This document shows, piece after piece, positions 5,426-41,068 of a stretch of DNA of 64,000 nucleotides (position 1 is its first letter; every line of letters begins with the position of its first letter). The position numbers and the translations under genes were made by a program. The notes beneath the pieces were generated by a model. That model was given only the letters and a program-made list of their open reading frames with translations. It was not told the DNA's origin and did not search any database. The stretch comes from Armatimonadota bacterium (GTDB lineage: Bacteria; Armatimonadota; UBA5829; DTJY01), in the NCBI GenBank assembly GCA_017993055.1, contig JAGONM010000008.1, forward strand, positions 1 through 64,000, written 5' to 3'.

Positions 5426-5454
5426 TTGACAATCAGAGCAGCGCGTGTTACGAT
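5426..5454 (+). promoter_or_regulatory. Promoter of nikR and the nickel operon
   Basis: TTGACA (5426-5431), 17-base spacer, TACGAT (5449-5454). Start of transcription is expected near 5461, leaving a short leader with an AAAGG ribosome site before the nikR ATG at 5475. The -10 box is overlapped by the first GTGTTAC repeat. Confidence 0.75.
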
Positions 5455-5471
5455 TCCTAGAAAGGTGTTAC
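5445..5471 (+). promoter_or_regulatory. Candidate NikR operator: two GTGTTAC direct repeats
   Basis: GTGTTAC occurs at 5445-5451 and again at 5465-5471, start-to-start distance 20 bases, about two helical turns. The first copy covers the -10 box and the second the start of the leader, an ideal position for repression. GTGTTAC resembles a half-site I recall being proposed for NikR in some deltaproteobacteria, where inverted pairs are more usual. Binding is inferred. Confidence 0.6.
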
Positions 5472-5474
5472 TCA

Positions 5475-5894
5475 ATGCCCGACTTGGCTCGCTTCGGAGT
5501 CTCGATTCCCGCAGAACTGGTGGACGCCTTCGACAAGAGCATTCACGGCAAAGGATACCGCAACCGGTCCGAGGCGATCCGCGACATCATGCGGGACTAT
5601 CTCGTCGAGCGCGACTGGGAATCAGGCGACCGGCCGGTGGTCGGAACGATCACGATCGTCTACGACCATGAGGTCCGCGACCTGTCCAATAACCTCACCG
5701 CACTTCAGCACGAGGTCCACGATGCGGTGGTCTGCGCGACGCATATCCACCTCGAAGAGCGCAGCTGTCTCGAAGTAATCGTGGTCCGCGGACGGAGCAG
5801 CGAGGTGCGGGCGATAGCGGACCGTCTGATCAGCACTCGCGGGGTCAAACACGGCAAGCTAGTCTGCACGACGACGGGCGAGCAGCTCAGGTAG
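5475..5894 (+). CDS. nikR: Nickel-responsive ribbon-helix-helix repressor NikR
   Basis: A 139-residue regulator. Residues 1-45 form the ribbon-helix-helix DNA-binding domain (RFGVSIPAELVDAFD, then RNRSEAIRD); the ACT-like C-terminal domain carries the nickel ligands H79, H90, H92 and C98 in QHEVHD, THIHLEERSC and LEVIVVRG, matching the His3-Cys site of E. coli NikR. ATG 5475 is chosen because the upstream part of the open frame overlaps the promoter. First gene of a tightly packed operon with the nickel ECF transporter, so it probably represses both itself and uptake when nickel is plentiful. Confidence 0.95.
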   Translation: MPDLARFGVSIPAELVDAFDKSIHGKGYRNRSEAIRDIMRDYLVERDWESGDRPVVGTITIVYDHEVRDLSNNLTALQHEVHDAVVCATHIHLEERSCLEVIVVRGRSSEVRAIADRLISTRGVKHGKLVCTTTGEQLR

Positions 5895-5919
5895 TTCATC
5901 CGACCACTCAGGAGGCACG

Positions 5920-6588
5920 ATGCACACGAACGGATCGAGCAGAGGAGGCGGAACGCTCGTCCTCGTCGTCGCCACGCTGTTGGCAGTAGGCGGAACCTGC
6001 CTTGCTTGTACCAGTGGGCTGATCGCCATACCGACCGCGGAGACGGTCCCGCACGGTGAATACGACATCGAGCCGCAGATTGACGGCGTCATGAGCGGCC
6101 TCCGCGACGACACCTGGATACTGAACACCCAGTTCGGACTCACCCCCAGGCTTGCGGCGGGCGTGGACTTCCAGTGGGCGGACGGGGACGATGGCGAAGT
6201 CCTTTTGAACTTCCAGTACCTGCTCGTCCCCAGCACGGATGTACGCCCGGCAGTGGCGGTCGGCATCCACAGCCTGGGCGTCGGACCCGAGCACGGGAGG
6301 TTCCTGGTCGCGACACAGGAACTCGACGCGCTCCGCGTTCATGCGGGAGTCGAGAGCATCGAGAACGAGAGCCAGTGGTTCGTCGGGGCGGACTACGCAG
6401 TGAGTGAGCGACTGGTGCTGATGGGCGACTATACTGCGGGTTCGGAGAACTGCTCGTCGGTGGGCTTCTGTTGGCATCAGAGAGAGGGCTTCGACGTTCA
6501 ACTCGGGGTGCTGTTCCCCAACTCGAGCAGCGCCGACACGCGGTTCAGCCTGGCCTTCGTCCTGACCGGACCGATCCAAGGGAGGTAG
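5920..6588 (+). CDS. Predicted outer-membrane beta-barrel protein in the nickel operon
   Basis: A 222-residue exported protein: signal peptide at residues 10-30 (hydrophobic core LVLVVATLLAVGG, probable cleavage near CLA), then SGLIAIPTAETVPHGEYDIEP, which recalls YjbH-like barrel proteins, followed by alternating-polarity strands to the end. It lacks a clear lipobox. It sits 25 bases after nikR and two bases before nikM, so it is transcribed with the nickel genes. A role as outer-membrane nickel or nickel-chelate channel is an inference from position only. Confidence 0.7.
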   Translation: MHTNGSSRGGGTLVLVVATLLAVGGTCLACTSGLIAIPTAETVPHGEYDIEPQIDGVMSGLRDDTWILNTQFGLTPRLAAGVDFQWADGDDGEVLLNFQYLLVPSTDVRPAVAVGIHSLGVGPEHGRFLVATQELDALRVHAGVESIENESQWFVGADYAVSERLVLMGDYTAGSENCSSVGFCWHQREGFDVQLGVLFPNSSSADTRFSLAFVLTGPIQGR

Positions 6589-6590
6589 CC

Positions 6591-7268
6591 ATGCACATAC
6601 CAGACGGGTATCTCGGTCCCCAGACCTATAGTGCGGCCTACCTGGTCGCAGCGCCGTTCTGGGCAGCGGCCTCACGCGCGGTCAGCCGAACGTTGCGAAG
6701 CAGGCAGGTCCCGATGCTGGCGCTTGGGGCGGCGTTCAGTTTCGTCATCATGATGTTCAACGTTCCGATCCCGGGAGGCTCGACGGGACACGCTGTCGGC
6801 GCCGTGCTCATAGCGGTACTGCTCGGTCCGTGGGCGGCATGCCTCGCGGTGTCAGTCGCGCTGATCGTGCAGGCGGTCATGTTCGGCGACGGCGGGATAA
6901 CCGCAATAGGGGCGAACTGCCTGAACATGGCGGTGGTGATGCCTTTCGTCGGATGGGGAGTTTACCGGCTGATAGCGGGGCGGTCGGAGGTAACTTCCAG
7001 GCGCAGATGGATCGGCGCGGCGGTCGGCGGGTACATCGGACTCAACGCGGCAGCGCTGAGTACGGCGATCATGTTCGGCATCCAGCCGCTGATCGCTCAC
7101 GACGCGGCCGGCCGCGCGCTGTATTCGCCCTACCCGCTCAAGATCGCGGTTCCGATAATGGCGGCGGAGCACCTACTGTTCTTCGGAATCGTGGAGGCGG
7201 TCGTCACCGGACTGGTGGTGGCTTATCTCCAGAAGGCGGATTCATCGCTCCTGGGGGCAAAGGCATGA
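6591..7268 (+). CDS. nikM: Nickel ECF transporter substrate-binding subunit NikM (CbiM family)
   Basis: A 225-residue CbiM/NikM S-component. It begins MHIPDGYL, where the free N-terminus and His2 form the metal site, and continues with about seven membrane helices; GGSTGHAVGAVL and GDGGITAIGANCLNMA are the conserved loops. The ATG at 6591 directly follows the family N-terminus and an AGGGAGG ribosome site; the longer upstream frame is not used. CbiM and NikM are hard to separate by sequence; the nikR neighbour favours nickel over cobalt. Its stop overlaps the nikN start (ATGA). Confidence 0.93.
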   Translation: MHIPDGYLGPQTYSAAYLVAAPFWAAASRAVSRTLRSRQVPMLALGAAFSFVIMMFNVPIPGGSTGHAVGAVLIAVLLGPWAACLAVSVALIVQAVMFGDGGITAIGANCLNMAVVMPFVGWGVYRLIAGRSEVTSRRRWIGAAVGGYIGLNAAALSTAIMFGIQPLIAHDAAGRALYSPYPLKIAVPIMAAEHLLFFGIVEAVVTGLVVAYLQKADSSLLGAKA

Positions 7269-7603
7269 AGAAGCTCTGGATTGGACTGGGCATTCTCGTC
7301 GTGCTCTCTCCGCTGGGCCTTATCATCCCGGCAAGGTTCGGCGCGGGATCGGCTTGGGGGGAGTGGAGCGCCGACGAACTGGACGGGATGGTCGGGTATC
7401 TGCCGGAAGGCATGTCGAGTGTGGCCGACCTGTGGCACGCTCCCATTCCGGACTACGCGATGAAGGGGCAGGAGAGCGCCCCGTTGCACGCGCTCGGTGT
7501 CTCCTATATACTGTCGGCGGTGATCGGCGCGGCGATAGTCGTCGCGCTGACGATGCTGCTGGGCAGGATACTTGCGCGACGCGAGAGCGAAGAAGAGTCA
7601 TAG
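7265..7603 (+). CDS. nikN: Nickel ECF transporter accessory subunit (PDGLE/NikN-like)
   Basis: A 112-residue protein with one N-terminal helix (residues 3-22, LSPLGLIIP) and one C-terminal helix (about 82-102), separated by a soluble loop containing AWGEWSADEL. This layout is that of the small CbiN/NikN or PDGLE-type component that works with CbiM/NikM in metal loading. Start ATG 7265 overlaps the nikM stop by four bases. The 3' end overlaps nikQ by 32 bases if the TTG start of nikQ is right. Confidence 0.85.
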   Translation: MKKLWIGLGILVVLSPLGLIIPARFGAGSAWGEWSADELDGMVGYLPEGMSSVADLWHAPIPDYAMKGQESAPLHALGVSYILSAVIGAAIVVALTMLLGRILARRESEEES

Positions 7604-8417
7604 GAAACGCAACACGGTCAGGCGCGCGCTGGCGAGCCTCGGGGAGGCGCTTGCCCGCGAGATGGCCGGCGAGCGACCGTCAGAATCGCGGGTCTCGCGC
7701 ATCGAACCGAGGGCGAAGGCCGTCAGTTGTCTGATCCTGATCGTCGGAGCGACCCTGCTCCATGGATTGCTTACTCTCGCGGCCCTCGTGGTCGGCGCCG
7801 CGACTGCCGTCCTAGTGAGCGGCATCACGCCTGCCCGCCTGGGACGGATGTGGCTCGGCGTACCGATGTTCAGCCTCGCGATCGCTCTGCCGGCGACTCT
7901 CAACGTCGTCACCCCCGGAACGCCGGTCGTCACCCTTCTCGGCCCATTGAGCGTCACCACGGACGGACTGATCGTCGCTGGGCGGCTGGTCCTGCGCTCG
8001 ACGGCCTGCATCACTCTCGCGTTTCTCCTGGTCGCCACGACCGACCGGGCGTCGCTGCTCAACGGGCTGCGGCGACTTGGAATGCCCAGAGCATTCGGGA
8101 TGGTGCTGGCGATGATGCAGAGGTACCTCACCCTACTGCTGCGGTCGGCGGAGGAGATTCACCTTGCCAAGTTGAGCCGGACGATCGGCGGTCGGCCGCT
8201 CAGGGACGAGCACCGCTGGGTCGCGGCGGGAATCGGCAGCCTCTTCCGCCGGACGCACCGCCTCGCGCAGGAGACGCACAACGCGATGGTGTCGCGCGGG
8301 TACGACGGCGACATCCGCGTCGCGCGGGCGCCCGGCATCGGGGCGACGGACTTGCTCTGGCCGGCGATATCCCTCGCCGCGACGCTGGTTCTCATGAAGA
8401 CGGATGGGAGGTTCTAG
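7572..8417 (+). CDS. nikQ: Nickel ECF transporter transmembrane coupling subunit NikQ (CbiQ family)
   Basis: A 281-residue EcfT-type protein linking the S-component to the ATPase. Several hydrophobic helices lie between residues 50 and 150, then the cytoplasmic coupling region (HLAKLSRTIGG) and the CbiQ-typical AMVSRGYDGDIR near the C-terminus. The start is uncertain: TTG 7572 has a GGGCAGG site just upstream but overlaps nikN by 32 bases; an internal ATG at residue 31 is an alternative. It is followed after three bases by the ATP-grasp gene, not directly by the ATPase as usual. Confidence 0.9.
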   Translation: MRDARAKKSHRKRNTVRRALASLGEALAREMAGERPSESRVSRIEPRAKAVSCLILIVGATLLHGLLTLAALVVGAATAVLVSGITPARLGRMWLGVPMFSLAIALPATLNVVTPGTPVVTLLGPLSVTTDGLIVAGRLVLRSTACITLAFLLVATTDRASLLNGLRRLGMPRAFGMVLAMMQRYLTLLLRSAEEIHLAKLSRTIGGRPLRDEHRWVAAGIGSLFRRTHRLAQETHNAMVSRGYDGDIRVARAPGIGATDLLWPAISLAATLVLMKTDGRF

Positions 8418-8420
8418 AGC

Positions 8421-9704
8421 TTGCGCTACAGAGGCATTGAGTTCTCCACCGAGTCGAAGGCCCTGGTCTATCCGTCGGGGACCGTCGCCGGCTACGGCAT
8501 CATCCGATCGCTGGGAGAGGCCGGCGTCCCGGTAGTCGCACTCAGTCCCGGGCGGTGCGACAACCTCCGGTCAAGGTATGTCAGAGAGCGCCACATCGTC
8601 CCCAATCCCATCGAGGACCACGAGGCGTTCGTGCGATGGCTGATCGAGTACGGCAGGAACCAGAGAACGAGGCCCGCACTCGTCCTTGCCGAGGACCTGT
8701 ACGCTTACATCGCATCGCTCTACCGGGATGAGCTTGCGGAAGCAATCTCGTATCCTTATCTCAGCCCGGAGACGATGCGGCTCGTCTTCGACAAAGAGCC
8801 GATGCTCCGGCTGGCGGCGGAGATCGGCATACCCGTCCCCGAAACTGTGTTCCGCCCGGACGCAGCCGACATCGCAGGCTGGCAACGTTTTCCGGCGCTG
8901 GTGAAACCGCTGGTTTCGAGGTTCACGTTCGACGGAAGAAGACTGCTGGACGTCGTGAAGTTCCCCAAGGAGTTCGGCGGAAAGGCGATATATGTCGCAG
9001 ACGGCAAGGACCTGAAAGAGGCAGCCCGCCGGGTGTCGGACATGGGGATTGCTTGCCTGGTGCAGGAGTTCATCAGCGAGCCAAACCGCAGCCTGGTGAC
9101 CGCGCAGTTCGTGGCCGAAGTCGGTGGAAAGCTGCCGTCGGTACACACTGCACGCAAGGTCCGCCAGGAACCGGCGGACTTCGGGAAGGCATGCGTGTCG
9201 GTGTCTTGCTACATTCCCGAACTGCGTGAGATGGCCGAGAGGTTCTGCAAGGCAAGCGGATTCGTGGGTTCGGGCGGGATCGAGTTCATCCACAGCAATC
9301 GAGACGGGAAGTGGTACATGCTGGAGATAAACCCGCGCTACGTGTACCGGTGCGGGATGTGCGCCTTGAACGGCGTCAACCTGCCGCTTCAGCATTACCT
9401 TATCTGCACGGGACAGCCTCTCTTCGAAGCGCGCCAGCGAGACGGCCGGTACTGGATAGACATCGCCGGAGACCTTGCTGGGCTTCGATGGCGCAAAGGA
9501 AAGCCTGAATGGAAGCTGAGCGCGTGGGAGATCCTGAGGCCGTACCTGAGGTTCAACGAGGCCGTATTCAACTGGCAGGATCCCATGCCCGGGCTGTTCC
9601 GATACGCGAGATTGCCCGCAGGCAAGGCGAAGCGCGCCCTGTCGGGCTGCTTCCGCAAGCGCAGTTGCGAGGTCACGTCACCGACGAGGGAGGAGATTCC
9701 GTGA
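8421..9704 (+). CDS. ATP-grasp ligase-like protein inside the nickel operon
   Basis: A 427-residue protein resembling the predicted ATP-grasp family of COG3919 (from memory). The pre-ATP-grasp Rossmann-like domain spans residues 10-110 (VYPSGTVAGYGIIRSL), followed by PETMRLVFDK, ALVKPLVSR in the ATP-binding lobe and the metal-binding EFIHSNRDG/MLEINPRY segment near residues 290-305. Members join a carboxylate to an amine using ATP. Starts with TTG three bases after nikQ and overlaps nikO by four bases (GTGA), so it is co-translated with the transporter. Its substrate is unknown; synthesis or modification of a nickel ligand is one speculative role. Confidence 0.85.
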   Translation: MRYRGIEFSTESKALVYPSGTVAGYGIIRSLGEAGVPVVALSPGRCDNLRSRYVRERHIVPNPIEDHEAFVRWLIEYGRNQRTRPALVLAEDLYAYIASLYRDELAEAISYPYLSPETMRLVFDKEPMLRLAAEIGIPVPETVFRPDAADIAGWQRFPALVKPLVSRFTFDGRRLLDVVKFPKEFGGKAIYVADGKDLKEAARRVSDMGIACLVQEFISEPNRSLVTAQFVAEVGGKLPSVHTARKVRQEPADFGKACVSVSCYIPELREMAERFCKASGFVGSGGIEFIHSNRDGKWYMLEINPRYVYRCGMCALNGVNLPLQHYLICTGQPLFEARQRDGRYWIDIAGDLAGLRWRKGKPEWKLSAWEILRPYLRFNEAVFNWQDPMPGLFRYARLPAGKAKRALSGCFRKRSCEVTSPTREEIP

Positions 9705-10534
9705 GCGACGTCGTCTTCAAGGCGAGCGGCATCAGCTACTCCTACCCGGGCGGCGCGGCGGTGCTGAACGAGATCAGCTTCGAGGTGCGCCAAGGAGAAC
9801 GCGCCGCCATCCTGGGCGCGAACGCGAGCGGGAAGTCCACCCTGCTGCATCTGCTCGACGGCCTTTACTTCCCGTCGGAGGGACGCATCGAGGCGTTCGG
9901 CAGAGAACTGACTGAGGAGGGCGTCGAGACCCCTCCGTTCTCTCGGGAGTTTCGGCAGAAGGTCGGCTTCCTCTTCCAGAACTCGGATGCCCAGCTCTTC
10001 TGCTCGACCGTCGAGGAGGAACTTGCGTTCGGGCCGCTCCAACTGGGGCTTTCCGCCGAAGAGGTCGAGCACCGAGTAGATGAAACGCTCAGGCTTTTCG
10101 GCGTCGAACATCTCAGGCGCCGCTCCCCCGGCGCGCTGAGCGGCGGCGAGAAGAAGAAGATCGCGCTGGCCGGACTCGTGACGTGCAGCCCCGAGGTGAT
10201 CCTGCTCGACGAACCGAGCGCCGGGCTCGATCCTCGGACTCAGCAGTGGCTGGTGGAGTTCCTCGAAGTCCTGCACAAGGCGGGAATGACGTTCGTCACA
10301 TGCACGCACGACCTCGGGTTCGCGGCGGATGTCGCCGACCGGGCGCTGGTCCTCTCGGAGGACCACGGACTCGCGTACGACGGTCCGCTTAACGAAGCGC
10401 TCGACGATCTAGACCTGCTGCTCTCGGTGAACCTGATTCACGCGCACGCGCACCTGCACGACGGCGAGATACACGAACACCCGCACATGCACGACTTGAC
10501 GCACGAGCATCGCCATATGGGAAGTGACCGGTAG
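9701..10534 (+). CDS. nikO: Nickel ECF transporter ATPase NikO with a His-rich tail
   Basis: A 277-residue ABC ATPase: Walker A GANASGKST, Q-loop FLFQNSDAQLF (typical of CbiO/EcfA), signature LSGGEKKK, Walker B VILLDEP and the H-loop CTHDL. After residue 240 the tail carries about 13 His within 30 residues (HAHAHLHDG, HEHPHMHD, HEHRHM), likely binding nickel; such tails support nickel rather than cobalt transport. GTG 9701 overlaps the ATP-grasp stop. The longer open frame upstream is the shadow of that gene. Last gene of the nikR operon. Confidence 0.95.
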   Translation: MSDVVFKASGISYSYPGGAAVLNEISFEVRQGERAAILGANASGKSTLLHLLDGLYFPSEGRIEAFGRELTEEGVETPPFSREFRQKVGFLFQNSDAQLFCSTVEEELAFGPLQLGLSAEEVEHRVDETLRLFGVEHLRRRSPGALSGGEKKKIALAGLVTCSPEVILLDEPSAGLDPRTQQWLVEFLEVLHKAGMTFVTCTHDLGFAADVADRALVLSEDHGLAYDGPLNEALDDLDLLLSVNLIHAHAHLHDGEIHEHPHMHDLTHEHRHMGSDR

Positions 10535-10564
10535 AAACGAAAGGCTGTTGACGGAGAGATGACC

Positions 10565-13201
10565 ATGAGACTACTTGCGGCCTGCATTCTGTTTGCGCTC
10601 ATCCTCGCGACGCGGGTCTTGTCGGAGAACGCGGATCTTTCGGACTTGTCCGACTTGACCGGCTGGGAGGGGCTGACCCCCGACCCGGCGATGACTTACG
10701 GCGGCATGCCCGCGCCGAAGTGGGACCACGCGAAGGACGGGCACATCAGTACGGATCAGATCCCGCACGACTGGGTGAGGTTCAACTGCCTCGAGTTCGC
10801 GCTTCACTCGAACAAGGCGAGCGGCGGTGAGGTCGTGCTGGTGCTCGGCTCTGACACGCCCAAGTCACCGGAGCCGGACTACTTTATGAAGAAGATCAGG
10901 CTCAACTGGCAGGGCTGGAAGTCCTTCGCCATACCATACACGGAGTTCGGGATCGCCCGCTGTCCGGTAGGGTTCAGCGACATCCAGGCTTTCATGCTCG
11001 CCTCAGAGGGATGGGACCTTGAGCCCGATCGCTCCGTGGTGATGCACATCGCGGGTATCCGGCTCGGCCGCGTGCCGAGTCCCGGCATATCCGATGACGA
11101 GCTGTTCGCAATGCTGGATCTCGACCGTTCAGGGCTGGAGAAGGTCAGGGATGCGCATGACCCAGGGGCGAGGATGCACGAGTTAGCCGAGTACCTGCGA
11201 AGCCGCGAGACGCCGGCCTGGAAGTGGGACTGGCGTAGTGAGCCTGAACGTGAGGCGGATCCCTCGAGAGTCGATACCAGAGCCGCCGACAGGGTGCTCG
11301 CCCACGAGTTGTACAGCTGCAGCCACTACCACAAGTACGAGGGCGAGATTGACTGGACGCTCAACCCGATCAACTACCGCGAGTGGCCGTGGCAACTCTC
11401 CCGCCACAGGGATTGGACCGTCCTTGCCGACGCATATCGGCGGACGGGCGATGAGAAGTACGCGCGCGAGTTCGTTTTCCAGCTCATGGACTGGCTGGCG
11501 AAGTGCCCCGTGCCGACGACCGTCAGCGGGAACGTGTCGTACACCTGGCGGACAATCGAGGCGGGCATCCGGGCGGGGCAGTCGTGGATGGATACCTATC
11601 ACAAGTTCCTGATCTCGCCGTCGTTCACGGATGAGGCGGTCGTCGCGATGGTGAAATCGTTCGCGGAGCACGCGAGGCACCTGGCGAAGTACCCGACTAC
11701 CGGCAACTGGCTGGCGATGGAAATGAACGGCCTGATGCACGTCGGCGCCATGTTCCCCGAGTTCAAGGAGTCGGCCGAGTGGCGCAGGACGGCGATGGAG
11801 AAGACCTACGAGGAACTCGACCGCCAGGTCTACCCGGACGGCGCGCAGATCGAGCTTGCCACCGGATACCATCAGGTCAGTCTCGGCAACTTCATCTCGG
11901 CCTGGGAGATCGCCCACCTGAACGGCGTACCGGTGCCGGATGATTTCATTGCCAGGATCCAGAAGATGTACGACTACAACCTCTACGCCTCGATGCCGGG
12001 CGGAACGCTACCGGGCCTGAACGACTCAGGGCGAACCGACATCAGGGGGTCGCTGGCGAAGGCGTTCACGTTCTACCCGGACAGGAAGGACTACGAGTGG
12101 GTATCCACCGGAGGCAAGAGCGGAGAGAAGCCGTCCGTCGGCTCCATCGCGCTACCGTTCTCGGGCCAGATCGTGACGCGCTCGGGATGGGATGCGGACG
12201 ACCGCTACCTGTTGATGGACGCCGGTCCGTTCGGGTACGGCCACCAGCACGAGGACTCGCTCAGCTTCGTGATCTACTCGCACGGCAGGTATCACCTCGT
12301 TGACCCGGGCAACTACCCCTATGACAGCTCGGAGTGGCGCAAGTACGTGCTCTCCACGCGCGCCCACAACACCATCAGGGTGGACGGGGAGGACCAGCAC
12401 CGGCGCGACAAACCGAACCGGGCAGACTATGTGATCTCTAAGCCGCTGCCGAACAAGTGGATCGCGGGTGAGGGTTTCGACTACGCGTGCGGAAGCTACG
12501 CCGAAGGCTACGGACCCAGGAACGATACCAGAGTCGAACACACCCGGCATATCCTCTTCGTGAAACCCGAGTACTGGATCGTCACCGACTTCCTGACGCC
12601 GCAGGACGACAAACCCCACCGATACGACAGCATGTTCCACCTCGATGCCCCGGGCGTCACGGTTGACGGGTCATCTCTGTCAGTCGTCACTCAGAACAAG
12701 GAGTCGAACCTCGCGATCATCGCTCTTGCCGACGAGGGGCTCCGGCTCGAAGTCATCTCCGGGCAGGAGAAGCCGATCGTGCAGGGATGGATGCCCGCGG
12801 GCGGATACGACGTGCGTCCGATCCCGACGCCGACGTATTCCCGCGAGCAGTCCGGCCCGGCGAGCTTCGCGTATGTATTCTACCCGGTCGCGGAAGGCGT
12901 CGAGTGCCCGGTCAAGTCGGTCGAGAAGCTGGCGGTAACGGGCCGGGCAATGGGCCTGACAGTCCGTTTTGCGGACGGAAGGACCGACCACTTCGTGCAA
13001 CGCGTGAAGCCGGGGGCGAAGCTGCGGTTTCTGGACTTCGAGACCGACGCGCAGGCGGTACACGTCCGCATCGGCGCCGACGGCACCGCAAGGGCACTTC
13101 TGGCGGGCGGCTCGAGGATCACGCGCGGGGGAGCGGCTGTCGAGGCGGAGATACGACCGATCGAGGACCTGTCGAGGACCGAAGCGAGACACTCCTTCTG
13201 A
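10565..13201 (+). CDS. Heparinase II/III-family polysaccharide lyase-like protein, secreted
   Basis: An 878-residue protein with signal peptide (MRLLAACILFALILAT). An N-terminal beta-sandwich-like part (about 30-180) is followed by an alpha-helical toroid (about 230-490, NYREWPWQLSRH, AGIRAGQSW, GNWLAMEMNG) and the heparinase II/III beta domain with GYGHQHEDSLSF, LVDPGNYPY and RAHNTIRVDGEDQ. Such enzymes eliminate uronic-acid polysaccharides. ATG 10565 has GGAGA seven bases upstream; an ATG six bases earlier is too close to it. Near the N-terminus, a 9-bp repeat encodes SDLSDL. Confidence 0.9.
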   Translation: MRLLAACILFALILATRVLSENADLSDLSDLTGWEGLTPDPAMTYGGMPAPKWDHAKDGHISTDQIPHDWVRFNCLEFALHSNKASGGEVVLVLGSDTPKSPEPDYFMKKIRLNWQGWKSFAIPYTEFGIARCPVGFSDIQAFMLASEGWDLEPDRSVVMHIAGIRLGRVPSPGISDDELFAMLDLDRSGLEKVRDAHDPGARMHELAEYLRSRETPAWKWDWRSEPEREADPSRVDTRAADRVLAHELYSCSHYHKYEGEIDWTLNPINYREWPWQLSRHRDWTVLADAYRRTGDEKYAREFVFQLMDWLAKCPVPTTVSGNVSYTWRTIEAGIRAGQSWMDTYHKFLISPSFTDEAVVAMVKSFAEHARHLAKYPTTGNWLAMEMNGLMHVGAMFPEFKESAEWRRTAMEKTYEELDRQVYPDGAQIELATGYHQVSLGNFISAWEIAHLNGVPVPDDFIARIQKMYDYNLYASMPGGTLPGLNDSGRTDIRGSLAKAFTFYPDRKDYEWVSTGGKSGEKPSVGSIALPFSGQIVTRSGWDADDRYLLMDAGPFGYGHQHEDSLSFVIYSHGRYHLVDPGNYPYDSSEWRKYVLSTRAHNTIRVDGEDQHRRDKPNRADYVISKPLPNKWIAGEGFDYACGSYAEGYGPRNDTRVEHTRHILFVKPEYWIVTDFLTPQDDKPHRYDSMFHLDAPGVTVDGSSLSVVTQNKESNLAIIALADEGLRLEVISGQEKPIVQGWMPAGGYDVRPIPTPTYSREQSGPASFAYVFYPVAEGVECPVKSVEKLAVTGRAMGLTVRFADGRTDHFVQRVKPGAKLRFLDFETDAQAVHVRIGADGTARALLAGGSRITRGGAAVEAEIRPIEDLSRTEARHSF
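10640..10662 (+). repeat. 9-bp dispersed repeat cluster
   Basis: TCGGACTTG, TCCGACTTG and a partial third unit, in frame in the heparinase-like gene as SDLSDL just after the signal peptide. Same family as the clusters at 22000, 23564, 37831, 39551 and 42479. Confidence 0.75.
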
Positions 13202-13424: not shown

Positions 13425-13946
13425 GTGAAAGTCATCGAGATACTCTTCTACGAGCGCAACAGGGTGAAGCTGGTCGTCGAGATGGGCGATCCGTACCGCT
13501 GTTCCACGGAGCACGCCCCGCACATACCCAGGCTGCTCTTCAAGCTCTTCCCGCATCTGTCTCGCCACCGATGCGACAATGAGAACGGCTACACTTTCCG
13601 CCGGGAATGTCAGGCCACCGAGATTCCCCACCTGCTCGAACACCTCATCATAGAGCTGCAGGGGCAGGTGCAGAAGTCGCGCGTCCTGAAGGGAGAGACG
13701 CAGTGGAACTGGAGGATAGACCCCAGGGGGCGGTTCCACGTCTACGTGGACTACGACAACGAGATGCTAGTCCTCGGGTCGATCCGCCTTGCGGAAAGAA
13801 TCATCAACGCCCTCGACGACCGGCAGATAGACCGGATTGACATGGACGAGGAGATGGCGCGCCTGAAGACGCTCGCCGACATGGGCAACGCGATCGCGGA
13901 AGCAGCCGCGATCGAAGAGGAGCCGAGGCAGGCCATCCCGGCGTAG
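13425..13946 (+). CDS. Stand-alone protein resembling the cyanophycin synthetase N-terminal domain
   Basis: A 173-residue soluble protein starting with GTG (MKVIEILFYERNRVKLVV). The central part (FRRECQATEIPHLLEHLIIELQ, then RGRFHVYVDYDNEMLVLGSIRLA) resembles the N-terminal region preceding the ATP-grasp domain of CphA1, where an EH-ELQ motif and a Y-V-YDNE stretch are conserved. No ATP-grasp or Mur-ligase part follows; the next gene is a sulfatase homologue. The C-terminal 40 residues are acidic. Function unknown; the family match is recognised by eye and is the main uncertainty. Confidence 0.6.
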   Translation: MKVIEILFYERNRVKLVVEMGDPYRCSTEHAPHIPRLLFKLFPHLSRHRCDNENGYTFRRECQATEIPHLLEHLIIELQGQVQKSRVLKGETQWNWRIDPRGRFHVYVDYDNEMLVLGSIRLAERIINALDDRQIDRIDMDEEMARLKTLADMGNAIAEAAAIEEEPRQAIPA

Positions 13947-14036: not shown

Positions 14037-15419
14037 ATGAACTTCATCTTCATCAACTCGGACTCATTCAGACGAGACAACCTCGATTGTTACGGGAACA
14101 ACTGGATTCAGACGCCGAACATCGACAAGTTCGCGCGAGAGTCGGTCGTCTTCGATCACGCATACACCGGCTCGTTCCCGACGGTACCGAACCGACGGGA
14201 CTTACTGACCGGCCGATACACATTCACCTACACCGACTGGGCTGCGCTCTCCAGCGAAGAGATCGTGCTCCCGCAGGTTCTCGGGAAGGCCGGCTACATC
14301 AGCTACATGATCCTCGACACGCCGCACGTCATCGCCAACGGGTACGGCTACGATCGGGGATTCAACGGATGGAACTGGATCCGCGGTCAGGAGGGCGACC
14401 GGTGGAAGACCCACCCGCGCGAGGTCAAGCTCCCGTGCGACGTGAAGAAGCTGCGAGGGGCGGATCGGACGACGTCCCAGTACCTGCGCAACGTGGCCGA
14501 CCGGCATGGCGAGGAGGACTACTTCGCGCCGATGACGATGGCCGGGGCGATGGATTGGCTCGATCACAATCACAAGCTCGACAAGTTCTTCCTCTACGTG
14601 GACACCTTCGACCCGCACGAGCCCTGGGACCCGCCGAAGAAGTACAAGGAGATGTACTGCGCGGGCTACAAGGGCGATGAGGTGATCTACCCGCTCTATG
14701 CGCCGCGCGGATTCCTGACGGATGCCGAACTGGAGCACATCCGCGGCCTCTATGCGGGCGAAGTGTCTATGGTCGATGCCTGGGTCGGCAAGCTCCTGAA
14801 GAAGATTGAGGACCTCGGCCTCATGGAGAACACGATGGTGATTTTCACGGCGGACCACGGCTTCTACTTCGGCGAGCACGGGCTGATCGGGAAGTTCGGG
14901 CCACTCTACACCGAGATTAGCCGCATCCCGCTGATCGTGCACCTGCCTGGAGTCGGTCCGGGCAGACGCGCGCAGTTCGTCCAGCCGTGCGACCTGATGC
15001 CGACTATCCTCGACCTGGCGGGCGTCGAGCACCCGGAGACGATCCAGGGGCACTCGCTGGTCGATATCCTTAAGGGCAGCCCGAGGCAGGTCCGGGAGTT
15101 CGCGGTGACATCAGGGGCGATCATCCATCCGCCGGTATCGGATGTGCCGTTGAACCTGGAGTCGTCGAACTGGGACCAGTATGCCCGCGCGCTCAAGGCG
15201 AGCACGATCGTGACCTACGAGTGGACGCTGATCGTCGGGGCCGGCGACCTCCAGCCGCAGATGTACCACAACCCGAGCGATCCGCACCAGAACGTGAACG
15301 TCTTCTCGGAGAACAAGGAAGTGGCGAAGAGGCTTCACGCGGGGTACATCGAGCTCCTGGAGTCGCTTGGCACGAAGGAGGAGTACATCGCTCCTCGGAG
15401 GGTGCTGCCGGGTGCTTGA
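14037..15419 (+). CDS. Sulfatase-like hydrolase lacking the formylglycine residue
   Basis: A 460-residue member of the alkaline phosphatase superfamily with sulfatase layout: metal ligand region NSDSFRRDN (residues 7-15), QTPNIDKFA, and TADHGFYFGEHGLIGK in the middle with the conserved Asp-His. The active-site motif, normally C/S-x-P-S-R, reads T49-V-P-N-R-R-D-L-L-T-G-R, so no formylglycine can form. There is no signal peptide, so it is probably cytoplasmic. It may be a phosphodiester or phosphonate hydrolase using Thr as nucleophile, or inactive. It lies between polysaccharide-degradation genes. Confidence 0.85.
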   Translation: MNFIFINSDSFRRDNLDCYGNNWIQTPNIDKFARESVVFDHAYTGSFPTVPNRRDLLTGRYTFTYTDWAALSSEEIVLPQVLGKAGYISYMILDTPHVIANGYGYDRGFNGWNWIRGQEGDRWKTHPREVKLPCDVKKLRGADRTTSQYLRNVADRHGEEDYFAPMTMAGAMDWLDHNHKLDKFFLYVDTFDPHEPWDPPKKYKEMYCAGYKGDEVIYPLYAPRGFLTDAELEHIRGLYAGEVSMVDAWVGKLLKKIEDLGLMENTMVIFTADHGFYFGEHGLIGKFGPLYTEISRIPLIVHLPGVGPGRRAQFVQPCDLMPTILDLAGVEHPETIQGHSLVDILKGSPRQVREFAVTSGAIIHPPVSDVPLNLESSNWDQYARALKASTIVTYEWTLIVGAGDLQPQMYHNPSDPHQNVNVFSENKEVAKRLHAGYIELLESLGTKEEYIAPRRVLPGA

Positions 15420-38048: not shown

Positions 38049-39530
38049 TCACAGTATGTACTTGCTCAGGTCCTCGTTCTTGAGAATGCCTTCGAGCTTG
38101 TCGCGGACGTATTCGGCATCAATGCTGACCTCGTGACCGGCAAGCTCCGACGCGTCGAACGAGAGCTCCTCGAGCAGGCGCTCCATCACCGTGTGCAGTC
38201 TCCGCGCGCCGATGTTCTCCATCTGCGAGTTGACCTCGGCGGCCATCCGCGCGAGTTCGTCCACCGCGTCGTCCGCAAACCGGACGGTCACGCCTTCGGT
38301 CGAGAGCAGCGCGCTGTACTGTTTGACCAGCGCGTTTTTCGGCTCGGTCAGGATGCGCTTGAAGTCGGCCTCGGTCAGGCTGTCTAGTTCGACGCGGATC
38401 GGCAGGCGGCCCTGAAGCTCCGGGATGAGGTCCGACGGCTTGCTGACGTGGAACGCGCCGGCCGCGATGAAGAGGATGTGGTTCGTGCGGACCGGGCCGT
38501 ACTTCGTGACGACGGTCGAACCCTCGATGATCGGCAGTATGTCGCGCTGGACACCCTCGCGGGAGACCTGGGGGCCGCTGTCGCCGCCCTTCTCCCGCCC
38601 CGCGATCTTGTCCATCTCGTCCACGAAGATGATGCCGGTCTGCTCCGTGCGGTCAACTGCCTCGCGGACGATCTGGTCGTGGTCCACGAGTTTCCCGGCC
38701 TCCTCCTGCGCGAGTACCTCTCTCGCCTCGCCTACCGTGACCGACTTCTGCTTCCGTCGGCGCATCATCGGGCCGAGCATGCCCTGCATGTCCATGCCCA
38801 TCTCTTCGATGCCCTGCCCGCTGAAGACCTGGAGGAACGGGGTGCCGCCGGTCTCCTCCACCTCGATCTCGATGCGCTTATCGTCAATCAAGCCGTCCTC
38901 GATCTGCTTTCGGAGCTTCGCCCTGATCCTCTCCTTGCGCTTGAGGTGCTCCCGCTCGAGGGCTTCGCGCTCGGCAACTTGATGCTCATCCTCCGCCACC
39001 GGTTCGGGCTCGGGCTCTGCCTGGCCTGGAACTCGCCCGCCGAACAACTGCCCTAGGAACTGGCTTGCGGCCTCCATTTCCTTCCCATGCGCCGGGCGCT
39101 CATCCTCGCGAGACGGCAGCGGCTCCATGATGTCGAGTATTCGTTCGACGGCAAGTTCGCGGGCGCGGTCCTGGACCTCGGCAACTTTCTCGGTCTCGAC
39201 CATCCGCACCGCAAGCTGGACGAGGTCGCGCACCATCGAGTCCACGTCGCGGCCGACGTACCCGACCTCGGTGAACTTGGTGGCCTCGACCTTGACGAAC
39301 GGGGCACGGGCGATCTGCGCGAGCCTGCGGGCGATCTCGGTCTTTCCGATGCCGGTCGGGCCGATCATGAGGATGTTCTTCGGGATGACCTCCTCGCGCA
39401 TGTCTTCCCCGAGCAGCCGGCGCCGATGGCGGTTTCGGAGGGCGATTGCCACCGCGCGCTTGGCCTTGTCCTGGCCGACGATATACTTGTCGAGTTCCGC
39501 GACGATCTCACGCGGGGTAAGGTCTTCCAT
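38049..39530 (-). CDS. hslU: HslU, ATPase subunit of the HslUV protease
   Basis: A 493-residue AAA+ unfoldase that feeds proteins to HslV. N-terminal [31 protein letters not shown] and Walker [10 protein letters not shown] are typical; [19 protein letters not shown], Walker [11 protein letters not shown] and the C-terminal DLSKYIL, which inserts into HslV, are present. It is longer than the E. coli protein (443) because the intermediate domain, about residues 125-250, is enlarged and acidic. ATG 39530 lies after a 9-bp repeat cluster that occupies the gap from hslV. Confidence 0.97.
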
Positions 39531-39550
39531 ATTTGCCTCTTCGAGTGGAG

Positions 39551-39577
39551 TCGGACTTGTCAGACATGTCCGACGTC
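39551..39577. repeat. 9-bp dispersed repeat cluster between hslV and hslU
   Basis: TCGGACTTG, TCAGACATG, TCCGACGTC in phase, reaching into the hslV stop codon. It fills the intergenic space just upstream of hslU. Confidence 0.8.
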
Positions 39578-40106
39578 ACAGCGCTTCCACCGTGATGTTC
39601 TCGTTCGTGTACACGCAGATCGAGGCGGCGGTGCGCAGTGCCTCCTCGACGATCTGCTGGGCGGTCAGGTTCGAGTGCCGCATCAGGGCGCGGGCCGCCG
39701 CTAGGGCATATCCCCCACCCGATCCGATCGCCGCGATACCGTCGTCCGGTTCGATCACTTCGCCGCTGCCGGAGAGGACGAGCACGTGCTCGGCGTCGGC
39801 GACGATCATCAGCGCCTCGAGCCTCCTCAGTATCCGATCCGTCCGCCACTCCTTCGCAAACTCCCGCACGGCGCGCAGGATGTTGCCGTGCGACTCCTCG
39901 AGCTTCGCCTCGAACTTGTCCGACAGCGTGTAGGCGTCGGCGACCGAACCGGCGATCCCTGCAAGCACCTTGCCGTCGTGCATCCGCCGGACCTTCTTCG
40001 CGCCGGCCTTCATGATCTGGTTCTCGATAGTCACCTGACCGTCGCCCGCCATGGCGACCTTGCCGTTGTGCATAACCGCGACGATCGTGGTTGCGTGTGC
40101 AGTCAT
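39576..40106 (-). CDS. hslV: HslV, peptidase subunit of the HslUV protease
   Basis: A 176-residue proteasome-like threonine peptidase forming two stacked hexamers capped by HslU. It starts [26 protein letters not shown]; the active N-terminal Thr of the family corresponds to Thr6 of TTIVAV, so a five-residue propeptide (MTAHA) is expected to be removed, as in several other phyla. [20 protein letters not shown] and [20 protein letters not shown] are conserved. Starts at ATG 40106, overlapping the xerC stop by four bases; a longer open frame continues upstream through xerC as a shadow. Confidence 0.96.
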
Positions 40107-41017
40107 TTCTCCTCCAGCGCCCGGGGGTGGGCCTGCTCGTAGACCTGCTTGAGGCGCTCCCGGGTGACGTGAGCGTAAATCTGCGTCGTCGAGAGGCTCG
40201 AGTGTCCGAGCAGCTCCTGGATCGAGCGGAGGTCCGCGCCGTTCTCGAGCATATGAGTCGCAAATGTGTGCCGCAGGACGTGTGGGCTGATCTTCAGCTC
40301 GCCGCTCACCGCCCCAAAGTGTTTGTCGAGCATCCGGGCGATACCGCCCGCCGTCAGCCGGCCGCCGTCCCTGTTCAGGAAAAGCGCCTGCTCGTCCGCG
40401 CCGTCCTTCCGCTTCGCAAGGAGCTTGGGGCGTGCATTCTGTATATACCCCGAGAGCGCCTCCTGTGCCGCGCGGCCGATGAGCGTGACGCGCTCCTTCG
40501 ATCCCTTGCCCAGCACCCTGATCTCGCCCGCGCCGAGATCCAGGTCTAGCAGATTCATCCCTGAGACCTCTCCAACCCGGCAACCGGTCGCGTAGATGAC
40601 TTCCAGGATCGCCGCATCGCGAGCGCCCGATGTTGTGGTCGTGTCGGGACGGAGCATCAGCGCCTCTATCTGCTCCGGGCGCAGGAACTTCGGCAGGCGC
40701 TTGTCGAGCTTCGGGCCGGAAAGTCCGAGCATCGGGTCCGCACTCATCAGCTTCTTGTGAACGAGATACCTGAAGAACGCCCGCAAGGAGGCCATCTTGC
40801 GAGCTATCGTCCGTTTCCCGTTCCCGCCGCGCTGGAGGCGGGCGAAATACCTCCGCATGACCCGGGAGTCCACCTCGCCGGGAGACGAGCCGATGCCCTC
40901 GTCCTCCAGGAAGCCGACGAACTGGGCGATGTCCGCCGAGTATGCCCTGATCGTATTCGAGGAGACGTTGCGTACGACCTGCAGATAGCTGATGAAGCGA
41001 TCGAGCTCTTGATGCAT
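40103..41017 (-). CDS. xerC: Tyrosine recombinase XerC/XerD family
   Basis: A 304-residue site-specific recombinase that resolves chromosome dimers at dif during cell division. SAM-like N-terminal domain residues 1-90; catalytic residues R147 (GCRVGEV), K171, H246 and R249 ([10 protein letters not shown]), H272 (LGHSS) and nucleophile Y281 (IYAHV) are all present. Housekeeping context between trmFO/topA and hslVU, as in Firmicutes and others, supports XerC rather than a phage integrase. Start ATG 41017; overlaps hslV by four bases. Confidence 0.92.
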
Positions 41018-41028
41018 GATGGAAGCAC

Positions 41029-41068
41029 GGAGTGGCGGAGTACCGGATACCCGTCACTCCGCCACTCC
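41029..41068. repeat. 13-bp inverted repeat built from the GGAGT-type repeat
   Basis: GGAGTGGCGGAGT (41029-41041) and ACTCCGCCACTCC (41056-41068) are perfect complements. The element fills the gap between the GH4 stop and the xerC start and may act as the GH4 terminator. It is a copy of the dispersed GGAGTACTGGAG-type family. Confidence 0.7.

Follow-up and report, generated by a model that had tools for sequence, protein, structure and literature searches.

The window analysed here, a 64,000-nucleotide stretch from a draft Armatimonadota genome (3.72 Mb, 82 contigs), contains seven plus-strand genes between positions 5475 and 10534. They probably encode a NikR-controlled NikMNQO nickel importer, together with an optional, probable outer-membrane channel and an unrelated, inserted and functional ligase that would not be needed for nickel uptake. 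The gene order (Table 1), the common strand and the identification of a nickel ECF system given in the preliminary description were all borne out, the latter by matches to Pfam and NCBIfam families.

Table 1. Genes of the nickel operon and its candidate operator.
Feature	Position	Strand	Evidence
Candidate NikR operator GTGTTAC-N13-GTGTTAC	5445..5471		two perfect half-sites, direct repeat
nikR, nickel-responsive repressor	5475..5894	+	NikR_C 1.3e-31, RHH_1 2e-6
Exported, probable outer-membrane beta protein, 222 aa	5920..6588	+	signal peptide, beta amphipathicity, weak YjbH
nikM, substrate-specific S component	6591..7268	+	CbiM PF01891 1.1e-61
nikN, PDGLE-domain accessory subunit (NikN-like)	7265..7603	+	PF13190 6.1e-11
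nikQ, T component, start uncertain (TTG 7572 or ATG 7662)	7572..8417	+	CbiQ PF02361 1.1e-31
ATP-grasp ligase of polysaccharide-cluster subfamily, between nikQ and nikO	8421..9704	+	orthologues 49-54%
nikO, A component (ATPase), His-rich tail	9701..10534	+	ABC_tran 3e-29

Gene content and proposed regulation of the operon

The substrate-specific subunit M, the T component Q and the ATPase O of a NikMNQO transporter were found in a single gene set. A nickel-type rather than cobalt-type system is indicated by the PDGLE-domain N subunit and by the adjacent NikR equivalog, which scored 199.6 bits against NCBIfam NF003381 (cutoff 105). The nikM product is 82% identical to its nearest relative, from genome G034. 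The nikQ product scored 130.7 bits against TIGR02454 (cutoff 111.8), and ECF ATPase/CbiO models were among the top NCBIfam matches of the nikO product, whose His-rich tail is seen in the translation. The subunit set, the adjacent nikR and the GTGTTAC consensus half-sites are shared with described NikMNQO nickel ECF transporters with NikR (Rodionov et al. 2004, PMC545781; Zhang et al. 2009, PMC2667541). The window differs from these systems in the direct orientation of its half-sites and in the presence of beta-protein and ATP-grasp genes within the operon. Nickel transport by a normal NikMNQO importer under NikR is a well-supported prediction from the sequence.

The genes are closely packed, with gaps of 25 bases between nikR and the beta-protein gene and 2 bases between the latter and nikM, and a 4-base overlap of nikM and nikN. 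The ATP-grasp gene starts 3 bases after nikQ and shares 4 bases (GTGA) with nikO, exactly as first described. The 4-base overlaps and gaps of 2-25 bases initially attributed to the whole operon hold at the other junctions but not between nikN and nikQ, where the TTG start at 7572 gives a 32-base overlap and the ATG start at 7662 a 58-base gap. This spacing suggests that the genes are co-transcribed.

A heparinase II/III-type lyase gene lies 24 bases 3' of nikO and is followed by genes for a sulfatase and a GH106-type protein (10559-13201 and 14037-15419); this polysaccharide-degradation stretch may be reached by read-through from the nik operon. The 173-residue product of 13425-13946 is similar to the N-terminal region of cyanophycin synthetase and lacks the rest of that enzyme. 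Elsewhere in the window, on the minus strand, an AAA ATPase is encoded next to a proteasome-type subunit domain (38049-41057). We take this pair to be HslU/HslV-like, with a second frame that is long for HslV (493 aa).

The window contains two copies of GTGTTAC, starting at 5445 and 5465 and separated by 13 bases; 3 bases lie between the second copy and the nikR ATG. In the survey of Rodionov et al. (2004; PMC545781), the NikR signal is the inverted repeat GTGTTAC-[N13/14]-GTAACAC, and Desulfotalea has an everted form. The candidate operator has the two upstream half-sites at the 13-14 base spacing of the NikR regulon, in direct rather than inverted or everted orientation, an arrangement unlisted in the 2004 survey. 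Allowing up to two mismatches (<=2), 0.05 operator matches were expected per shuffled window. The 3.72 Mb host genome and genome G242 each contain a single match to GTGYTAC-N13/14-GTRNYAC, in both cases at the nik operon. Sites matching this pattern also precede the nik operons of G022, G026, G089 and G097; the G089 site is likewise direct (GTGCTAC-N13-GTGTTAC), and in G022 one site lies between tandem copies of the beta-protein gene and another before nikR. Read backward as a control, the pattern matched 0 to 8 times on each strand of a genome, and isolated matches away from nik genes are therefore of little weight.

The exported beta protein

The protein encoded between nikR and nikM is probably an outer-membrane beta protein and a candidate beta-barrel, as suggested by a signal peptide read from its sequence and by beta-type alternation of hydrophobicity averaged over its family (z 4.1). 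It shows weak local similarity to YjbH (PF06082; E 0.0013, 18.1 bits, below the Pfam gathering score of 24), from which it differs in having one third of the length and another gene context. A PDB profile search with the family found no relative, and the single-sequence AlphaFold model was unusable (pLDDT 35.7).

Across 291 genomes of the phylum, the family is multi-copy, with 56 matches in 49 genomes at E<=1e-8, most of them away from nikM. In six genomes belonging to several families (the host, G022 with two tandem copies, G089, G096, G097 and G242), the gene is the immediate upstream neighbor of nikM, in the same orientation. We estimate that about 0.02 such adjacencies would arise by chance, given 56 copies and ~3500 genes per genome. 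NikR sites precede five of these six operons. The nik operon of G026 has no beta-protein gene; in that genome a barrel-like gene standing on its own, encoding 250 residues with weak YjbH similarity (positions 1679-2431 of the locus read on contig 203), has a perfect inverted NikR site in front of it. Where upstream DNA was read, family copies away from nik operons mostly had no NikR site, weak matches aside.

The preliminary description had credited the operon with an outer-membrane barrel of its own. This holds in part: the gene directly precedes nikM in five further genomes and follows candidate NikR operators, but it belongs to a multi-copy family and most nik operons do without it; the barrel fold itself is predicted. 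The many nik operons that lack the gene, and the many copies lying apart from nikM and mostly from NikR sites, would fit a general envelope protein co-transcribed by happenstance and without a role in nickel uptake. We consider this unlikely, given the repeated same-strand adjacency far above chance expectation, the NikR sites before five of the six operons and the perfect site in G026. A co-regulated outer-membrane nickel channel is a reasonable inference. Known nickel-specific entry across the outer membrane is TonB-dependent, through receptors such as FecA3, FrpB4 and NikH (PMC11247825). The window protein would share with them an outer-membrane nickel step, here proposed to be co-regulated with import; unlike them, it has 222 residues and no TonB-type domain match in Pfam.

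The ATP-grasp gene between nikQ and nikO

Family models gave weak support to the ATP-grasp assignment: CPSase_L_D2 scored just over its cutoff (2.4e-4), and ATP-grasp_3 and PRK12767 fell below theirs. The assignment, proposed in the preliminary description, is nevertheless supported by the catalytic residues. K162, K188, K246, R248, E302, N304 and R306 are conserved or nearly so in the alignment (13 homologues) and are all kept in the window copy, which thus has both the ExNPR motif (E302, N304, R306) and the ATP-site lysines (K162, K188) of the superfamily. The segment NPR-LDFW of the orthologues reads NPR-YVYR in the window copy, so its substrate may differ; the change is compatible with an altered substrate. 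AlphaFold modelling from two sequences was unusable (pLDDT 32.7).

The gene is intact and branches first in the subfamily, outside the second host copy on contig 37, the G002/G004 pair and Desulfotruncus arcticus; its private changes number 27, and those of the relatives 24, 21 and 30. A degenerating pseudogene was rejected on the grounds of the intact frame and normal rate of evolution, and a recent duplication of the contig 37 copy on the grounds of 51% identity and the outside branching position. Foreign origin was not apparent from base composition, GC3 or codon usage, all of which match the host, and no convincing repeats flank the gene. Together, the intact frame, retained residues, normal rate, host-like composition and lack of convincing flanking repeats suggest a working enzyme that has been resident for a while rather than a decaying insert. 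Most likely, it is a functional passenger private to this lineage, as predicted from these sequence features.

NikM was detected at E<=1e-40 in 54 of the 291 genomes, and about 40 NikM loci were inspected. None of these loci, including those with the beta protein, contained an ATP-grasp gene; most of the loci extend 1.5 kb past nikM, and in some, including those with long fused NikM types, nikQ was unrecognised by sequence and nikO alone was visible. Wherever nikQ and nikO were both visible in relatives, they were direct neighbors, with nikO after nikQ. No genus-mate of the host was present among the relatives searched, and the order nikQ-ligase-nikO was seen in one genome.

Any ATP-grasp match at E<=1e-10 was found in 20 of the 291 genomes, and the close subfamily only in G002, G004 and the host genome, the host having the window copy and that on contig 37. 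The window protein shares 51-54% identity with the G002, G004 and contig 37 proteins (51% with the contig 37 copy). A scan of GTDB contigs with two short peptide patterns, which reaches close relatives only, added one more, from D. arcticus (49% identity). The copies in G002, G004 and on contig 37 lie outside any nik operon. In G002 the neighbors encode a DegT aminotransferase, a UDP-sugar dehydrogenase, a Wzz-type protein, a Wzx-type flippase and glycosyltransferases, and in D. arcticus the order is DegT aminotransferase, ATP-grasp enzyme, hexapeptide transferase and flippase. The contig 37 copy begins at base 1 of its contig, upstream of flippase and glycosyltransferase-like genes. The window copy shares its catalytic residues with enzymes of polysaccharide clusters and differs from them in its nickel-operon context and in the NPR-LDFW segment. 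The proteins of G002, G004 and D. arcticus are 629-645 residues long and carry a C-terminal extension, a methyltransferase in G002 according to Pfam, whereas the window and contig 37 copies both end after the ATP-grasp part.

These neighborhoods contradict the earlier view of the ATP-grasp gene as a fixed operon member, for which tight spacing in one genome is insufficient, and leave its proposed synthesis of a nickel ligand unsupported. Absence from orthologous nickel operons combined with homologues in polysaccharide clusters, which had been named beforehand as the outcome that would mark a chance insertion, is what was observed. Of the two genes whose constant presence in related nikM neighborhoods had been put forward as a check, the ATP-grasp gene was found in none of the ~40 loci and the beta-protein gene in a minority.

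An enzyme recruited in the host lineage could instead join an amine and a carboxylate into a nickelophore, or modify a part of the transporter, with the barrel admitting the nickel-ligand complex. The 3-base gap, the GTGA overlap and the normal evolutionary rate are equally expected of such a recruited member and of a passenger; the intact enzyme, the NPR-YVYR segment with its hint of an altered pocket and an operon that also encodes an exported beta protein are likewise in keeping with recruitment. We nevertheless regard it as quite improbable, because the gene is missing from all other nik loci read, those with a barrel gene included, its close orthologues all reside in polysaccharide clusters, and the operon has no exporter, second biosynthetic gene or TonB-dependent receptor. 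Our literature search, moreover, found no paper naming NikMNQO together with ATP-grasp. A broader version, in which a nickel-regulated, non-TonB outer-membrane channel family is coupled to NikMNQO in the phylum and a lineage-only ATP-grasp enzyme makes or modifies a nickel chelate, appears very unlikely. Less probable still, the gene could be an artefact of assembly or have been inserted too recently to be fixed in the population. The arrangement was observed once, in a draft genome of 82 contigs whose second copy starts at the first base of a contig; however, nik genes flank the ATP-grasp gene on both sides with clean junctions, its GC3 and codon usage are host-like, its flanks show no clear repeats, and 51% identity between the two host copies makes cross-assembly unlikely.

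Proposed mechanism and significance

In the preferred reading, a nickel importer with an optional channel and an inserted passenger ligase, scarcity of nickel would cause NikR to leave its operator and the operon to be transcribed. NikM with NikN would then capture Ni2+, and NikQ would couple to the NikO ATPase, which would power uptake across the inner membrane, as in the established families. The beta protein may act as a small outer-membrane channel that admits nickel, free or chelated, to the periplasm, co-regulated with the importer and optional among relatives. The ATP-grasp protein would be a working ligase of the carboxylate-amine type, drawn from the repertoire of polysaccharide modification; its gene would have been inserted precisely between nikQ and nikO in the host lineage and would be co-transcribed with them. 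The role of the enzyme most likely remains one in the metabolism of cell-surface glycans, and nickel uptake would be independent of it.

As for the use of the imported metal, the host genome encodes a homologue of the LarA-type nickel enzyme, a possible nickel user. A further short stretch matches the large-subunit family of NiFe hydrogenases and could be a complex I subunit, and the only urease match falls below cutoff. Of these candidates, LarA is the most probable nickel user.

The ATP-grasp gene illustrates that tight spacing and overlapping starts in a single genome are no proof of pathway membership. The beta protein, encoded beside nikM under candidate NikR sites, would, if its proposed role is true, represent a simple alternative to TonB-dependent nickel entry.
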